The position numbers were made by a program, and so were the translations under genes. The notes below the pieces were generated by a model. It was not told where the DNA came from and did no database searches. It saw nothing but the letters and a program-made list of their open reading frames with translations. This document shows, one piece after another, positions 9,567-41,301 of a stretch of DNA of 64,000 nt. This DNA is from an uncultured Clostridia bacterium (lineage in GTDB: Bacteria > Bacillota > Clostridia > Oscillospirales > Ruminococcaceae). Within the stretch, counting starts at the first letter, position 1. Each line of letters starts with the position of its first letter. The stretch spans positions 1 through 64,000 of the forward strand of contig CANRDI010000001.1 of assembly GCA_947629335.1 (NCBI GenBank), read 5' to 3'.

Positions 9567-10160
9567 ATGAGCAGGTATGAGGAATTTGACGATTATGAAA
9601 AGCTGATAAAGGATAAGCTGTCAAAAAAACGCTTTGTTCACAGCATAAACGTCGCGGAGGAATGTTATGCTCTTGCAAAGCACTATGGAGCTGACGAAAA
9701 ACGCAGCTATCTTGCGGGGCTTTTACACGATATAATGAAAGAAGAAGAACCCGAAAAACAGCTTAAATATACAGCGGAGAGCGGACTTTCTCCCGATCCT
9801 GCGGAAATTGCCGCGAAACAGCTCCGCCACGGTATCGCAGGGGCGTATTATGTCCGTGAAAAGCTCGGAATAGACGACGAAGAGATAATAAGCGCCATAC
9901 GCTATCATACTGTTGGCTGCGCGAGAATGACGCTTATAGAAAAAATCGTGTACTTGGGAGATATGATTTCCGCAGAGCGCGATTATAAGGGAATTGAAAA
10001 AATGCGCGAATATTGCTATAAGGATATAGACCTTGCGATGTCGGTGGCGCTTATCTATCAGATACAGAGCGTGTGCGGGAAATGCGGTCATATACCCGTT
10101 TCGACATACGAGGCGTATAACTATTATCTGAAATTCAATAAAGAAAGGGAAACTCTATGA
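9567..10160 (+). CDS. yqeK: YqeK-type HD-domain nucleotide hydrolase
   Basis: YqeK-family proteins are iron-dependent symmetrical Ap4A hydrolases (established for the family). This 197-residue protein shows the HD-domain pattern: the first histidine in RFVHSINVAEE, the HD pair in LAGLLHDIMKEE, then ISAIRYHTVG and IVYLGDMIS. It overlaps rsfS by four bases (ATGA) and follows nadD by 20 bases. Confidence 0.92.
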   Translation: MSRYEEFDDYEKLIKDKLSKKRFVHSINVAEECYALAKHYGADEKRSYLAGLLHDIMKEEEPEKQLKYTAESGLSPDPAEIAAKQLRHGIAGAYYVREKLGIDDEEIISAIRYHTVGCARMTLIEKIVYLGDMISAERDYKGIEKMREYCYKDIDLAMSVALIYQIQSVCGKCGHIPVSTYEAYNYYLKFNKERETL

Positions 10161-10507
10161 CAGATATACAAGAACTCGAAATAATCGTAAAAGCGCTTTC
10201 CGAAAAGAAAGCCGAAAAGCTGACGGCATTAAAGGTCGAGGACATAACGAGCCTCGCAAATTATTTTGTTATCGCGGGAGCGTCAAGCACTACACAGGCA
10301 AAAGCTCTCGCGGATTATGTCGAATTTAAGCTCGGCGAAAAGGATATAAAGCCGAAAAATATCGAAGGAACAGGCGCGGCGGGCTGGATAGTATTAGATT
10401 ATATAGACGTTGTGGTCCATATTTTCACCGAAGAACAGCGCGATTTTTACCGTCTTGAAAACCTTTGGGCGGACGGGAAGATCGTGGATATTTCCGCGTG
10501 GGAATAA
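10157..10507 (+). CDS. rsfS: Ribosomal silencing factor RsfS (Iojap)
   Basis: RsfS binds ribosomal protein L14 and blocks subunit joining when nutrients are low. The 116-residue protein has the family motifs DITSLANYFVIAGASSTTQ, GTGAAGWIVLDYIDVVVHIF and the closing FYRLENLWADG. It is the last gene of the rdgB operon; a repeat element that can end in a hairpin follows directly. Confidence 0.95.
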   Translation: MTDIQELEIIVKALSEKKAEKLTALKVEDITSLANYFVIAGASSTTQAKALADYVEFKLGEKDIKPKNIEGTGAAGWIVLDYIDVVVHIFTEEQRDFYRLENLWADGKIVDISAWE

Positions 10508-10512
10508 TAGAA

Positions 10513-10691
10513 CAGGCTGTCGATAAAGCCTCGTCTGCGTTGTAGCGTTTTCCGCCAAAGGCGGATAATGCGGCGTTTTAATGCAGCAGCCATAAAGGAT
10601 AGTTGCATTGTCGTTTCGGCGTTTTTCGAGAAGCGCATAATGCGTGCATACAGGAGTTTTCTCAACAGCCTGAGTTTTGATTTTTATACAG
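10513..10691 (+). repeat. Dispersed inverted-repeat element, copy 1 (long form)
   Basis: The element opens with CAGGCTGT and closes with ACAGCCTG, an 8-bp terminal inverted repeat, followed by a T-rich tail (gttttgatttttatacag). A shorter copy lies at 22120-22218 with the same start, middle (gttttccgcc-aaagc-gataa) and end, lacking about 75 bp present here. It may act as a terminator for rsfS. It accounts for most of the gap before the rpsU promoter. Confidence 0.75.
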
Positions 10692-10781
10692 AATGATAGA
10701 ATTTATCCGCTAAAAAATTGCGGTTGAATTTGGATAAAGTTGCCAAAAACAAAAAAACTTGAAAATTTTGTGAAAATTCTA

Positions 10782-10810
10782 TTGACAAACATTATCGGAT
10801 AGTGTATAAT
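10782..10810 (+). promoter_or_regulatory. Sigma-A promoter for rpsU
   Basis: Perfect TTGACA (10782-10787) and TATAAT (10805-10810) with 17-bp spacing. It leaves a leader of about 55 bases with a GGGGAGGG ribosome site before rpsU. Confidence 0.9.
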
Positions 10811-13401: not shown

Positions 13402-14462
13402 GTGCGGCAAAGGAACTTTCGGAATGGCTCGCGGACGAGCGGACAGCGGCGCTTATAACATCCGACCTGTCGCTCAGGCATTTATGCGGGTTCGGGCTTA
13501 TGCGCGGATTGATACTCGCGGCAAAAGAGGAAAATTTTCTTTTTGTGACCGAGGGCGAGTATGAATTTGCAAAAACTGCGGCAAAAGATTTTACGGTCTG
13601 CGTATACAGCAATATCAAACAGCTTCTTGACCTGCTTATAAAGCTGAACATCAGAAGAGTTCTGATAGAAAGCGACAAAATGACGGTGAGAGAGCTTAAT
13701 TATTATGCAAACGAGCTGCATTGCGCGCAGATGATAACAGACGACCTGCTTTCGCATAAGTTGGCGATGCTGAGGACAGTAAAAAGCGATTCCGAGCTTA
13801 AAGGCATACAAAAAGCCCAGATCGTCTGTGATAAAGCATACGACAAGCTCCTTATGAGCATAAGAAAGGGCATGACCGAGCGCCAGACAGCCGCAATGCT
13901 CCGCGGATTTCTGTACGAATACGGAGCAGACGAGCTTATGCCGAGAATGAGAACGGCTTCGGGAGAAAATTCCGCAAAACATTTTTCAAAACCTACGGAC
14001 AGGAAAATATCCGAAGGCGATTTTCTGCTTATAGATTTTGGCGCGAAGGTCGGAGGATATTGCGCGTCAATGGCGAGAACGGTCATTGTCGGGGAAATAT
14101 CGCCGAAGCGAGAGAATATATATAACGCCGTATTCTGCGCGGTTGAAGACGGATTGAATTCGCTGCGCGAGGGAATAGGCGCAAAGGTCGCACAAAGCGT
14201 GGCAATGGCGACCCTCAATAACTGGGAAATAGATAAATACGCAAAAGCCGATTTCGGACACGGAACGGGACTTGATTTTTCCGAACCGCCTTATCTTGAA
14301 CAGGGTTCACCCTCAATGCTCAAAACAGGTATGACGCTTATCTGCGGGTGCGAGTTGACTGCGCCGAACAGATACGGAGTGAAGATAGCGGATTGTGTGG
14401 CGGTGACTGAAAACGGATATGTTAATTTCACCAAAGCCACAAAAAGCCTTGTACACATCTAA
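13398..14462 (+). CDS. M24-family Xaa-Pro peptidase homologue, metal site degenerate
   Basis: The layout is that of an aminopeptidase P or prolidase (creatinase N-domain, then pita-bread M24 domain from about residue 130), 354 residues, in the position where the Xaa-Pro peptidase gene sits before efp. Of the five expected metal ligands, Asp213 (LLIDFG) and His288 (GHGTGL) are present. The second Asp is Ser224 (GYCASMARTV instead of YxSDxTRT). In gapless alignment TVEPG reads ICGCE and RIED reads KIAD, so both Glu ligands are lost. It is probably not an active metallopeptidase. The reading frame is intact, so it is not an obvious pseudogene. Confidence 0.85.
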   Translation: MSAAKELSEWLADERTAALITSDLSLRHLCGFGLMRGLILAAKEENFLFVTEGEYEFAKTAAKDFTVCVYSNIKQLLDLLIKLNIRRVLIESDKMTVRELNYYANELHCAQMITDDLLSHKLAMLRTVKSDSELKGIQKAQIVCDKAYDKLLMSIRKGMTERQTAAMLRGFLYEYGADELMPRMRTASGENSAKHFSKPTDRKISEGDFLLIDFGAKVGGYCASMARTVIVGEISPKRENIYNAVFCAVEDGLNSLREGIGAKVAQSVAMATLNNWEIDKYAKADFGHGTGLDFSEPPYLEQGSPSMLKTGMTLICGCELTAPNRYGVKIADCVAVTENGYVNFTKATKSLVHI

Positions 14463-15689: not shown

Positions 15690-15741
15690 CAGCCTGTGCG
15701 TATGATTATTGGTTTTAGGCTTAATAAACGGGGGTGTTTTT

Positions 15742-16140
15742 ATGACTATCGGAGAAAAGGTTTCTTATATAAAGGGCCTTTGCGAGGGACTGGGAAAAGA
15801 AGATAAGATCGTTTCGGCTATTCTTGACGTCCTTGCGGATATTGCGGAAAATCTCGAAGAGGTCGATGAAGAGCTTGATGATGTTGCGTCTGTAATGACC
15901 GACCTTGAAGAGAGCGTTTGCGATCTCGAAGACGAGATATACGGCGAGGTTGAAAATGACGATTATTATGATGAAGATGAGCTTGACGAAGACATCGGCG
16001 AGATGTACGAAACAGAATGTCCGAACTGCCATAACAAGATAAATTTTGATTATGACCAGGCGGCAAAGGGCGAGCTTGACTGCCCGAACTGCGGCAAAAA
16101 GCTCGTTTTCGATCTTGATGACGAAAGCGAAGAGGTATAA
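15742..16140 (+). CDS. CD1247-type protein with C-terminal zinc ribbon
   Basis: A very acidic protein of 132 residues. The N-terminal half (MTIGEKVSYIKGLCEGLG, then a coiled-coil-like Asp/Glu-rich helix) matches the CD1247 N-terminal domain family found near efp in Clostridia. The C-terminus is a zinc ribbon with two CPNC knuckles (ECPNCHNK and DCPNCGKK). Function is unknown. ATG 15742 follows CGGGGGTG and is preferred to the track start at 15709. Confidence 0.8.
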   Translation: MTIGEKVSYIKGLCEGLGKEDKIVSAILDVLADIAENLEEVDEELDDVASVMTDLEESVCDLEDEIYGEVENDDYYDEDELDEDIGEMYETECPNCHNKINFDYDQAAKGELDCPNCGKKLVFDLDDESEEV

Positions 16141-23535: not shown

Positions 23536-23564
23536 TTCTGATAGATACAGAGGAGATGAATAAA

Positions 23565-24473
23565 ATGGCTAATATTACACCAAAGGACGTAAAAGAGCTG
23601 CGCGATATGACAGGCTGCGGAATGATGGACTGCAAAAGAGCGCTTGAAGACGCAAACGGAGACCGCGATGAAGCTGTAAAGATACTTCGTGAAAAGGGTC
23701 TTGCAAAGGCTGCGAAGAAAGCGGGAAGAATTGCCGCAGAGGGCATTGTAAAGACGCTTATAAAGGGTAATGTCGGAATTATCGCCGAGATAAACTGTGA
23801 AACAGATTTCTGCGCGAAGTCGGATAAGTTCTTAGAGCTTGTTGATGAGATAGCAAATACAATTCTTGAAAGCGGCGCGGCAGATCCTGAGGCACTTATG
23901 AGCTGTAAGGTATCGGGAACGGACGAAACCGTTGAGGCTTATCTTACAAACAAGATAGCAACTATCGGCGAGAACATCAAGATCCGCCGCTTTGCAAGAA
24001 TGGAAGGCACACTTACGGGTTATATGCATGATGGCGGCAGAATAGGCACGCTTCTTAAAATTTCTACCGATAAGCCTGACAGTGCCGAGGTCATGGAATG
24101 TGCAAAGAATGTAGCGCTTCAAGTTACCGCACTTAATGCTCAGTATATAAGCAAGGATACTGTTCCGGCAGAGGTACTCGCAAACGAGAAAGAGGTTCAG
24201 ACGAAGCTTGTTGAGCAGGAAGGAAAGCCCGCGAATGTTGCGGAGAAGATCGTCGAGGGACGAATCAGAAAGTTCTACGAGGACGTTTGCCTGCTTGACC
24301 AGAAGTACTTTAAGGATGACAAGGTAACTGTCGGAAAGTATATTGAGGGTGCAGCAAAGGCTCAGGGCTGCTCGATAAAGGTCGAAGAATTTATTCGTTT
24401 TGAGCGCGGCGAGGGTATTGAAAAGAAGGCTGACGACTTCGCGGCAGAGGTTGCGCAGCTTGCAGGAAATTAA
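23565..24473 (+). CDS. tsf: Elongation factor Ts
   Basis: EF-Ts is the nucleotide exchange factor for EF-Tu. It begins MANITPKDVKELRDMTGCGMMDCKRAL and contains INCETDFCAK, both signatures. I chose ATG 23565 (302 residues) because AGAGGAG directly abuts the track ATG at 23556 but lies about 9 bases before 23565. A clear terminator follows about 20 bases after the stop. Confidence 0.97.
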   Translation: MANITPKDVKELRDMTGCGMMDCKRALEDANGDRDEAVKILREKGLAKAAKKAGRIAAEGIVKTLIKGNVGIIAEINCETDFCAKSDKFLELVDEIANTILESGAADPEALMSCKVSGTDETVEAYLTNKIATIGENIKIRRFARMEGTLTGYMHDGGRIGTLLKISTDKPDSAEVMECAKNVALQVTALNAQYISKDTVPAEVLANEKEVQTKLVEQEGKPANVAEKIVEGRIRKFYEDVCLLDQKYFKDDKVTVGKYIEGAAKAQGCSIKVEEFIRFERGEGIEKKADDFAAEVAQLAGN

Positions 24474-24495
24474 GGCAGATTTATTTAAAAGTTTT

Positions 24496-24524
24496 ACGGC
24501 TCTCCAAAGTGGAGAGCCGTTTTT
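24496..24524 (+). terminator. Rho-independent terminator of rpsB-tsf
   Basis: A perfect stem GGCTCTCC-AAAGT-GGAGAGCC is followed by GTTTTT. Confidence 0.92.
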
Positions 24525-24560
24525 AATAGAGGTAAGAATAAAAGTCGAACAACACTTCCT

Positions 24561-24960
24561 CTTTCCGACCGCTGCGCAAGAGGCGGCACATAAGTTTTCT
24601 GCGAATTATTTTGGGGGAAAACTTTTAAAAAAGTTTTCCCCCAAACCCCTTTTCAAAACTTTTGTGTTACTTGCAGTAATGGAAAAGCGTTTTCGCTTTC
24701 TAACTGCGCCGTAAGGCGCGGCACATAAGTTTTTTGCGAATTATTTGGGGGAAAACTTTAAAAAAAGTTTTCCCCCAAACCCCTTTTCAAAACTTTTATG
24801 TTACTTGCAGTAATTGGAAAAGCGTTTCCGCTTTCCGACCGTGCCGTAAGGCGCGGCACATAAGTTTTTTGCGAATTATTTTGGGGGAAAACTTTTGAAA
24901 AAGTTTTCCCCCAAACCCCTTTTCAAAACTTTTATGTTACTTGCAGTAATGGAAAAGCGG
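24561..24960. repeat. Three tandem 135-bp copies of a hairpin repeat family
   Basis: Units begin at 24561, 24696 and 24831 (ctttc...), so the period is exactly 135 bp. Each contains a compact 5' part (gtgccgtaaggcgcggcac), a strong hairpin gggggaaaactttt...aaaagttttccccc, then aaaccccttttcaaaacttttatgttacttgcagtaatgg. The same family lies inverted at 40581-41240. ORFs called here are by-products. Confidence 0.9.
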
Positions 24961-24963
24961 GTT

Positions 24964-25001
24964 CAAGTGGGAAAACCTTTTTTAAAAGGTTTTCCCACTT
25001 G
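24964..25001. terminator. Perfect 18-bp hairpin between repeat array and spoIIID
   Basis: CAAGTGGGAAAACCTTTT and AAAAGGTTTTCCCACTTG are perfectly complementary with a 2-base gap. It ends 6 bases from the spoIIID stop and could act as its terminator, although no long T-run follows on the minus strand. Confidence 0.6.
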
Positions 25002-25006
25002 CGTAA

Positions 25007-25279
25007 TTACGCCGTCTTTTTTTTCAGTTCTTTGTATTTCCGTTTAGTTGCCTCCCCGCCTCTGATGTGGCGCTCAAGTTTGTTTTTGTTCAGAACTGCC
25101 TTTACTTTTTCATAGAGAGCCTTATTGACCTTCGGGAGTTTTGAGGTTATATCCTGATGAACCGTGCTTTTACTAATTCCGAATTGTTTTGCGGTACTTC
25201 TGACGGTTGCGTTTTTTTCGACAATATATGTTCCGAGTACGACACACCTTTCGTCATTTCCTTCGTTTATTGTTTTCAA
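25007..25279 (-). CDS. spoIIID: Sporulation transcriptional regulator SpoIIID
   Basis: SpoIIID is a small DNA-binding regulator of mother-cell genes in sporulation. The 90-residue protein has the helix-turn-helix TVRSTAKQFGISKSTVHQDIT and the basic C-terminal ERHIRGGEATKRKYKEL, both family hallmarks. The start is TTG with AAAGGGG about 10 bases upstream. It is transcribed opposite to its neighbours. Its presence shows that the organism belongs to a spore-forming lineage. Confidence 0.95.
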   Translation of the reverse strand: MKTINEGNDERCVVLGTYIVEKNATVRSTAKQFGISKSTVHQDITSKLPKVNKALYEKVKAVLNKNKLERHIRGGEATKRKYKELKKKTA

Positions 25280-25362
25280 CGAAATTCAACCCCTTTCAAA
25301 GTGTATAGCACTAAATTTTATGTCCGTCACTTCACGAATATGATTGCGGACAAATTCGCTAT

Positions 25363-25390
25363 TGACAATTAACCGCAAAAACGTTATAAT
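25363..25390 (+). promoter_or_regulatory. Promoter of the methionine gamma-lyase-like gene
   Basis: Perfect TTGACA (25363-25368) and TATAAT (25385-25390) with a 16-bp spacer. Confidence 0.85.
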
Positions 25391-25433
25391 TAAAAGTGTG
25401 GTCATTGTCAGATCTTTAAATAAGGAGAAGAAT

Positions 25434-26684
25434 ATGATATTTGAATTCAGTCCCGAAATAGTTGAAGCAGAGCTTTCAGCTTTGGAAAAATGCAGAGAAC
25501 AGTTCGACGCGCTCGACAAGCTCTGCGAATACAACGGCGAAAAGGTCTTAAAGGCATTTATAGACAACAACATAGGTGAAATGCACCTTAAAGGTACTAC
25601 AGGTTATGGCTATGGCGACGGCGGCAGGGACAAGTTAGACGCTGTATTCGCACAGGTCTTGGGCGCGGAGGACGCGCTTGTACGCCACAATTTCGTAAAC
25701 GGCACTCACGCGATTGTAACCGCGCTGTTCGGAGTTCTGAGAGCAGGCGACAGGATATTGTTCACAACATCAAAGCCGTATGATACCGTTTGCGACGCAG
25801 TTTTCGGTGAGAACATAGGTTCTCTCCGAGATTACGGTATAACGGCGGAGGTAGTTCCGCTCACACAACAGCAAATGCCCGATTATGAAAAAATAGCCGA
25901 ACGCGCAAAGGGCTGTAAAGCGGCTTTTATTCAGCGTTCAAGAGGATATTCGCTCCGTCCGTCCTACGATATTGACACGATAGGAAAGATTATCGCCGCT
26001 GTCAAGAAAAATAATCCCGATTGTACAGTAATAGTTGACAACTGCTATGGAGAACTTGTTGAGGAAAAAGAACCGACTGCGGTCGGCGCTGACCTGATTA
26101 TCGGCAGTCTTATAAAGAATTTAGGCGGCGGTATTGCCGAAACGGGCGGTTATATTGCAGGAAGAGCAGACCTTATCGAAAAATGCGCCTATAGGCTCAC
26201 AACTCCCGGAGCAGGCAAAGAGGTCGGCTGTACATTAAATCAGCTCAGAGGAATGTATATGGGACTTTTCCACGCTCCCGAAGCAGTCTGCTCAGCGCTT
26301 AAAACTTCGGTTTTCGCCGCGGCATTGTTTGACGAACTGGGTTATGAAACTTTCCCGAAATATGACGAAAAACGAACGGATATTATTGCGGCAATAAAAC
26401 TTGGCGGCGAAAAAGATCTGTGCGCATTCTGCGAGGGAATACAAAGCGGCTCGCCCATAGACAGCGGCGTTACGCCCGAACCGTGGGATATGCCCGGCTA
26501 TGACAGCAAGGTTATTATGGCGGCAGGCGCGTTTACAATGGGAGCGTCGATTGAAATTTCCGCAGACGCTCCGCTCAGAGAGCCGTTTGCGGTATGGATG
26601 CAGGGCGGACTTACCTTCACAAGCGGAAAAATTGCCGTTATGAAAGCTGCCGAGCGCGTTTTGAGGGACAGAGAAAATGGTTAG
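25434..26684 (+). CDS. Methionine gamma-lyase-family PLP protein (YnbB-like)
   Basis: A fold-type I PLP protein of 416 residues of the family annotated as methionine gamma-lyase or 'aluminium resistance' protein. Signatures are GYGYGDGGRDKLDAVFAQVLGAEDALVR, VNGTHAI, VDNCYGELVEEKEPTAVGADL and the likely PLP lysine in IGSLIKNLGGGIAETGGYIAG. The substrate is not known with confidence. ATG 25434 has AAGGAG upstream and is preferred to the long track ORF. It overlaps the next gene by eight bases. Confidence 0.87.
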   Translation: MIFEFSPEIVEAELSALEKCREQFDALDKLCEYNGEKVLKAFIDNNIGEMHLKGTTGYGYGDGGRDKLDAVFAQVLGAEDALVRHNFVNGTHAIVTALFGVLRAGDRILFTTSKPYDTVCDAVFGENIGSLRDYGITAEVVPLTQQQMPDYEKIAERAKGCKAAFIQRSRGYSLRPSYDIDTIGKIIAAVKKNNPDCTVIVDNCYGELVEEKEPTAVGADLIIGSLIKNLGGGIAETGGYIAGRADLIEKCAYRLTTPGAGKEVGCTLNQLRGMYMGLFHAPEAVCSALKTSVFAAALFDELGYETFPKYDEKRTDIIAAIKLGGEKDLCAFCEGIQSGSPIDSGVTPEPWDMPGYDSKVIMAAGAFTMGASIEISADAPLREPFAVWMQGGLTFTSGKIAVMKAAERVLRDRENG

Positions 26685-30782: not shown

Positions 30783-30810
30783 CGCAAATATGTGACTATT
30801 TGTGTTCTGT

Positions 30811-30918
30811 TCTTTCATCCGGACTATACCGTCGGTATCGGAATTTCACCGATTCAACAGCCGTTTGACAGCCGCTCGCGGACTATACCGCCGGTGAGGA
30901 CTTTCACCTCGCCCCGAA
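30811..30918 (-). ncRNA. FMN riboswitch (RFN element)
   Basis: Read on the minus strand, conserved blocks appear in order: GGGGCGAGGTGAAAGTCC, CACCGGCGGTATAGTCCGCGA, ATCGGTGAAATTCCGATACC, GACGGTATAGTCCGGATG. These match the RFN consensus closely. It lies between a consensus promoter and ribU. Confidence 0.95.
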
Positions 30919-30953
30919 ACAGATAAAATTAATTTGTGATCTCTCACACACAT

Positions 30954-40553: not shown

Positions 40554-40580
40554 TGGTAAGAATTGAAAAGGCGGACAGCA

Positions 40581-41240
40581 TTTCCATTACATCACGTTGC
40601 ATAAAAGTTTTGAAAAGGAGTTTGAGGGAAAACTTTTTCAAAAGTTTTCCCTCAATTGGGGCGCGGGAGCAGCGCCACCGCAAATCCGTCAACGGAAAAA
40701 ACTGTAAGGGGGAAGACCTTTTAAAAAAGGTTTTCCCCCTTTAACCCTCTTTCCAAAACTTTTATGTGCCGCGCCTTAAGGCGCAGTCGGAGAGCGGAAG
40801 TGCATTTCCATTACAGCACGTTACATAAAAATTTTGAAAAGGGGCTTGGGGAAAAACTTTTTCAAAAGTTTTTCCCCAATAGGGGCGCGGGGACGAAGCC
40901 CCCGCAAAGAAAAAATTAGCAAAAGTGCATTTCCATTACAGCATGTTGCATAAAAGTTTTGAAAAGGAGTTTGAGGGAAAACTTTTTCAAAAGTTTTCCC
41001 TCAATTGGGGCGCGGGAGCAGCGCTACCGCAAATCCGTCAACGGAAAAAATTGCAAGGGGGAAAACCTTTTAAAAAAGGTTTTCCCCCTTTAACCCTTTT
41101 TCCAAAACTTTTATGTGCCGCGCCTTGCGGCACGGTCGGAGAGCGGAAGTGCATTTCCATTACAGCACGTTACATAAAAATTTTGAAAAGGGGTTTGGGG
41201 GAAAACTTTTTTAAAAGTTTTCCCCCAAAAAACTAAAAAA
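40581..41240. repeat. Two tandem ~349-bp composite repeats of the hairpin family (inverted relative to 24.5 kb)
   Basis: The segment starting tttccattac at 40581 recurs at 40930, and the inner tttccatta at 40805 recurs at 41154; both offsets are 349 bp. Each unit holds three strong hairpins (for example agggaaaactttttcaaaagttttccct and gggggaaaaccttttaaaaaaggttttccccc) and the tag ttatgtgccgcgcctt. These are the reverse complement of the 24.5-kb units. It fills the gap between the feo operon and the FAH gene; ORFs here are by-products. Confidence 0.9.
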
Positions 41241-41301
41241 ACTTTCACGGTGCGTCTTTTGGTGCAATCGGAGAGTGAAGGCGCTGTTCGTTTATTTTTC
41301 C

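Follow-up and report, generated by a model that had tools for sequence, protein, structure and literature searches.

What kind of element is the hairpin-rich, tandemly repeated DNA that fills the gap between tsf and spoIIID, and how does it spread? In the window, by which we mean the whole stretch of 64,000 nucleotides that was analyzed, this gap is bounded on the left by tsf (elongation factor Ts; 23556–24473, + strand; Pfam EF_TS, 4e-68), whose 3' end points toward the repeats, and on the right by spoIIID (25007–25279, − strand; Pfam SpoIIID, 9e-36), which is convergent with tsf. The rpsB-tsf intrinsic terminator (24496–24520, + strand; an 11-bp stem then TTTTAATAGA in the terminator scan) has a homologous hairpin in relatives and lies upstream of the array and outside it.

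The array (array 1) comprises three head-to-tail units of 135 bp at 24561–24959, each holding a strong hairpin, as a preliminary description of this DNA had stated. Tandem Repeats Finder (TRF) called 24556–24959 with a period of 135, 3.0 copies and 90% matches, and CACATAAG starts at 24587, 24722 and 24857, a spacing of exactly 135. With nhmmer, unit 1 (left arm, hairpin, right arm) spans 24561–24689 (model positions 3–131, 119.7 bits), unit 2 spans 24694–24824 (1–131, 110.6 bits) and unit 3 spans 24829–24959 (1–131, 127.7 bits), all on the + strand. Their long hairpins, located by inverted self-match and folding, occupy 24610–24645 (TTGGGGGAAAACTTTT stem in unit 1), 24744–24779 and 24880–24915. 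Each unit has an RNA minimum free energy of −46 to −53 kcal/mol; compared with dinucleotide shuffles, unit 2 folded as single-stranded DNA has z = −5.8, and the entire 441 nt (24561–25001) folded as RNA has z = −11.2.

The flanks of the three units carry further parts. On the left (24522–24560, − strand) the heptad motif TAGAGGTAAGA is followed by AAAAGTCGAACAACACTTCC, an outward motif common to many other array ends. On the right, a fourth, different hairpin (CAAGTGGGAAAACC...GGTTTTCCCACTTG; 24964–25001; fold −26.9 kcal/mol) lies directly beyond the spoIIID stop codon and has no T-tract; hairpins similar to it are found again at other arrays and in relatives. Array 1 is best read as extending from about 24522 (the heptad end motif) to 25001 (the fourth hairpin).

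A reverse-complement relative had also been reported 16 kb away. This relative is real (array 2, 40578–41276, opposite strand), but it is a mosaic and no simple inverted copy: it is rearranged from the parts of array 1, with a super-period of 349 bp. Read along the − strand, a full unit (41151–41276; nhmmer 2–130, 95.4 bits) precedes a left arm plus hairpin (41047–41145; 1–94), after which the sequence continues with TCCGTTGACGGA and the GCGGTAGCGCTGCTCCCGC spacer. Two copies of hairpin plus right arm (40927–41004 and 40802–40879; both 53–130), another left arm plus hairpin (40698–40796; 1–94) and a last hairpin plus right arm (40578–40655; 53–130) complete the array, which closes with a terminal GCTGTCCGCCTTTT...TTCTTACC in its end sequence.

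The two arrays belong to a large family. The genome-wide BLAST that had been proposed, run with the 441-bp query against the organism's own genome (2.48 Mb, 50 contigs), returned 189 matches at many loci, which places the repeat far from chance. Across sampled stretches totaling about 525 kb, an iterated nucleotide HMM found 243 units, whole or partial, which fall at 70 loci. For an estimate of abundance, we used 264 kb picked independently of the repeat (the window and ten 20-kb stretches); this repeat-blind sample contains nine loci, which extrapolates to about 85 loci per 2.48-Mb genome. Because at least 14 contig ends of the assembly lie in or beside arrays, the assembly probably breaks at them and the longest arrays are unseen.

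In a full unit, a long perfect hairpin of 30–36 nt (usually TTTGGGGGAAAACTTTT...) separates a left arm of about 52 nt from a right arm of about 45 nt. The arrays also include lone left arms with a hairpin, lone hairpins with a right arm and a block of several further hairpins. Mosaic palindrome clusters result, in which arms, hairpin types and other hairpin modules follow one another in many different orders. Perfect hairpins of at least 11 bp number 211 in 30.7 kb of arrays (one per 146 bp), compared with one in an array-free 20-kb control.

The junction between a right arm and the next left arm can fold like a cloverleaf, with an outer stem and inner hairpins. We aligned 51 of the 74 extracted junctions, near-duplicates and odd cases having been removed by hand; standard pairs occupy 88.7% of the cells, and none of 500 shuffles scored as high. 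Two pairs of one junction hairpin swap from GC to CG in about 20 of the 51 sequences. Shuffling of copies among arrays means that these 20 or so cases do not count as independent, and the paired swap may be one ancient event that was later shuffled among copies. RNAalifold alone recovered two short hairpins only. The mark left by the pairing would be identical whether it is the DNA or the RNA that folds.

The arrays are intergenic, and their placement relative to genes is uneven. Among the 47 loci with genes on both sides, 23 occupy convergent gaps, compared with 15 of 99 background gaps of 80 bp or more (Fisher p = 3e-5), while only two occupy divergent gaps (18 of 99 in the background; Fisher p = 0.02). 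The suspected preference for gene 3' ends is supported. The gene caller used for this test is simple and misses short genes; since it missed spoIIID, array 1 was scored as co-directional and the convergent figure is conservative for that locus. REPs have been described with the same bias toward 3' and convergent positions (PMC3733652).

The comparison with relatives points to mobility. Array 1 is absent from the tsf-spoIIID gap in all five relatives compared: the gap is short in G013 and G001 and holds a different repeat in G005, G007 and G010. At another place, site A, G010 has 740 bp of modules, whereas in its sister species G005 and G007, which are about 91–94% identical to it, the two flanks meet directly. 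The empty tsf-spoIIID gap and the difference at site A indicate that the family moves or turns over. Together, the many loci and the empty orthologous site bear out the earlier view of a non-autonomous dispersed repeat, and they exclude a repeat confined to two places without variation. At single sites, repeated deletion in the relatives could formally replace insertion here. As identity to the relatives reaches no more than 91–94% and the gaps themselves are hypervariable, exact ends and target duplication are beyond proof. We do not claim the candidate duplication in G010 at site A, where ATGCYGATATWAAGCAT stands on either side, because the motif itself is nearly palindromic.

Consensus versions of the family are species-specific; G006, G013 and G023 share one with AAAGACTTTT arms, and short core matches extend into other families of the clostridial order. 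Orthologous gaps of G010, G005 and G007 hold wholly different strings of hairpin modules (on contig C13 of G010, 13450–14188, 15725–16115 and 10090–10797) between genes that are 91–94% identical. At the tsf-spoIIID site of the sister species (L023, after tsf, ~2465–2775), a palindromic repeat, AAGAATTTCGGG...CCCGAAATTCTTACCTC, is present in three copies in G010 and in one copy in G005.

We consider it likely that the arrays represent a non-autonomous, modular palindromic family of intergenic space, mostly directly 3' of genes, which was inserted by mobilization in trans and then grew locally. A selfish repeat family similar to BIME and BOX elements is the best reading. To judge from the empty sites, modules would insert into new gaps, probably mobilized in trans by an enzyme, and resident arrays would then grow and reshuffle through recombination or slippage between copies. 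The searches described below brought no such enzyme to light. Survival would be mostly in 3'-3' gaps, since insertions elsewhere would harm promoters or genes.

The outer borders of the arrays bear on a first alternative. The preliminary description gave the ends as unknown; inverted end motifs are now seen at many arrays, although the exact ends are unproven. Many arrays, although not all, terminate outward in GGAAACGCTGTCCGACTTTTTCTTACCTCTAA or a variant, and many have inverted end pairs of the types TTAGAGGTAAGA...CGGACAGCGTTTCC / GGAAACGCTGTCCG...TCTTACCTCTAA and CGGACAGCG/TTAGAGGTAAGA. With one mismatch allowed, TTCTTACCTCTAA occurs 97 times in the genome, compared with seven occurrences of the reversed control pattern, and a TA dinucleotide is frequent at the outer border. 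These recurrent ends are consistent with ordinary MITEs, in this case elements derived by internal deletion from a DDE insertion sequence whose terminal inverted repeats would be TTAGAGGTAAGA / CGGACAGCG. RUP and other MITEs, which are mobilized in trans by such insertion sequences, are likewise small and non-autonomous with inverted ends and AT-rich borders. However, we found no parental insertion sequence: transposase of IS630, the one DDE family searched for across the organism's own genome, was not detected there, and the long inverted-end pairs that we inspected enclose no transposase. In addition, the interior is a string of hairpins and not a transposon remnant. The status of TTAGAGGTAAGA as a certain outer border is weakened by its occurrence alone and in tandem, and the heptad also surrounds unrelated small palindromes; it may belong to the element itself or be a distinct repeat to which the element is drawn. 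We therefore regard a MITE origin as unlikely.

The small palindromes bracketed by TTAGAGGTAAGA heptads and unrelated to the main family are at L101, L102, L103, L048 and L053, several of them beside tRNA genes. A second heptad repeat, TTGACAGTATACAGGGTACAGTGGACAGT, forms the inverted ends of other inserts in G007 (C55, ~1320–1560) and G010 (C13, ~13450–13520).

A second alternative dispenses with transposition: hairpins would build up neutrally in unconstrained gaps by template switching and slippage, and spread by gene conversion or natural transformation. The extreme mosaicism and the different module strings at one site in sister species are in keeping with such a process. Units are also more alike within arrays than between them (83% versus 77% identity; none of 1000 label permutations reaches this), so that arrays grow locally as well. 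Nevertheless, blocks of several modules are found in their entirety, and almost unchanged in sequence, at many loci, and species have their own consensus versions; both are hard to obtain without copying to new sites, and a purely neutral origin seems quite improbable to us.

REP-like repeats are best known from Proteobacteria, in which their spread is attributed to a dedicated Y1 transposase. The family here resembles REPs in its hairpin units, its placement between genes, its mosaic tandem arrays and its preference for 3' gaps (PMC3733652; PMC8266576), and the organism's own genome contains three IS200-like Y1 transposase gene copies. Movement as REP/BIME-type elements, in which a Y1 (HUH) tyrosine transposase (RAYT or IS200/IS605 TnpA) acts on hairpins of single-stranded DNA, is nonetheless very unlikely. 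Of 422 hairpin feet, only 4 have a GT[AG]G or CGTC motif at a distance of 6 nt or less. The Y1 genes of the genome are only three near-identical copies of one 767-bp IS200-like element, whose end hairpins are unlike the repeat. In G002, G005, G007, G010 and G013, several of which are near-complete and all of which carry the family, the search for a Y1 transposase came back negative. It is the lack of the foot motif, the unrelated IS200-like ends and the lack of a detected Y1 gene in five carriers that argue against RAYT-type spread. The copies of the IS200-like element (G000 C10, C15 and C16; L009, L010 and L011) have an in-frame stop in the Y1 transposase frame, which also speaks against this route.

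The RAYT-like transposase that had been suggested as a target was thus sought in the own genome and in these five relatives and not found. The earlier remark that no transposase accompanies the arrays agrees with our scan, which found no transposase domain among the window proteins covered (part of the window's open reading frames), and the Y1_Tnp matches of the own genome lie on other contigs. Contig C49, flanked by inverted array pieces, was considered as a possible autonomous element and set aside, its translations reading as an EAL-domain-like gene and a putative lipoprotein.

It had also been suggested that the hairpins end transcription. Our results do not support this: the long hairpins lack the T-tract of an intrinsic terminator, and a terminator scan of 23900–25700 called the terminator of tsf and a single GTGCCGTAAGGCGCGGCAC site inside a unit, with no call on the long hairpins. 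The tsf terminator (24496–24520) already lies upstream. If transcribed, the arrays would place stable hairpins, rather than standard terminators, at mRNA 3' ends, and a role in mRNA 3'-end stability is possible. That the arrays are selected 3' elements, bidirectional terminators or mRNA 3'-end stabilizers amplified for their usefulness, would suit the strong enrichment in convergent gaps, the hairpin immediately past the spoIIID stop codon and the pairing kept despite sequence variation, but we hold it to be highly improbable given the missing T-tracts, the normal terminator that ends tsf, the relatives in which the same gap works without the array, and the many different modules, which suggest no fixed architecture.

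The preferred reading, a selfish family mobilized in trans, can be placed among known systems. REP/BIME elements (REPINs) with TnpAREP (RAYT) are likewise palindromic, intergenic, located near 3' ends, present in high copy and mosaic tandem arrays, and found in species-specific versions. In contrast to them, the family described here has no GTAG/CGTC foot and carries perfect hairpins of 30–36 nt inside multi-hairpin units of about 130 bp. A RAYT is missing from the own genome, and several carriers yielded no Y1 gene. It is therefore not a canonical REP/BIME-RAYT system: position bias and mosaic clusters agree, whereas foot motif and transposase do not. BOX elements of Streptococcus pneumoniae (boxA-boxB(n)-boxC) are also modular and intergenic, with a variable number of internal modules and a predicted compound secondary structure, and their mobilization in trans is assumed (PMC3049150), as it is here. 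The likeness drawn here is one of organization; compared with BOX, this family has many more module types and can form tandem full units. As for BOX-type ends, inverted end motifs occur at many but not all arrays, and no duplication is proven at empty sites. The SPRITE repeat of S. pneumoniae, which is terminator-like, shares a long duplex hairpin dispersed near gene ends, although a U-rich tract follows its stem (PMC3049150) and none follows the hairpins here.

Database searches gave no match to a described family. Rfam yielded no match above the gathering score in the repeats, phage and plasmid collections contained no match to the repeat, and an exact 50-mer search found none in a contig collection that may omit the own genome and its near relatives. 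Our literature search found no description of the repeat family in this clade. Within what was searchable, the sequence family is new, while its kind, with BIME- and BOX-like behavior, is known. A bolder proposal, which we offer tentatively and think rather doubtful, is an undescribed class of modular hairpins with core relatives across several families of the order, moved by an enzyme unrelated to RAYT and rebuilding gaps at such a pace that sister species, while sharing genes, have hardly any intergenic modules in common.

Having REP-like habits but no foot motif, and several carriers in which no Y1 gene is detectable, the family would make other spreaders of palindromic repeats directly testable. 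It also has practical effects, being in or beside at least 14 contig ends and the main intergenic difference at the sister-species sites compared.

Two other features of the window are of separate interest. At 1172–1460 in the window, the RNase III gene encodes an N-terminal extension of about 90 residues that is basic and tandemly repeated, built from DNA repeats of 30/15 bp. Matches from the relatives do not fully cover this extension, and most start at query residue 65–95. An FMN riboswitch is located at 30804–30925 on the minus strand, upstream of a gene for the substrate component of an ECF-type transporter.
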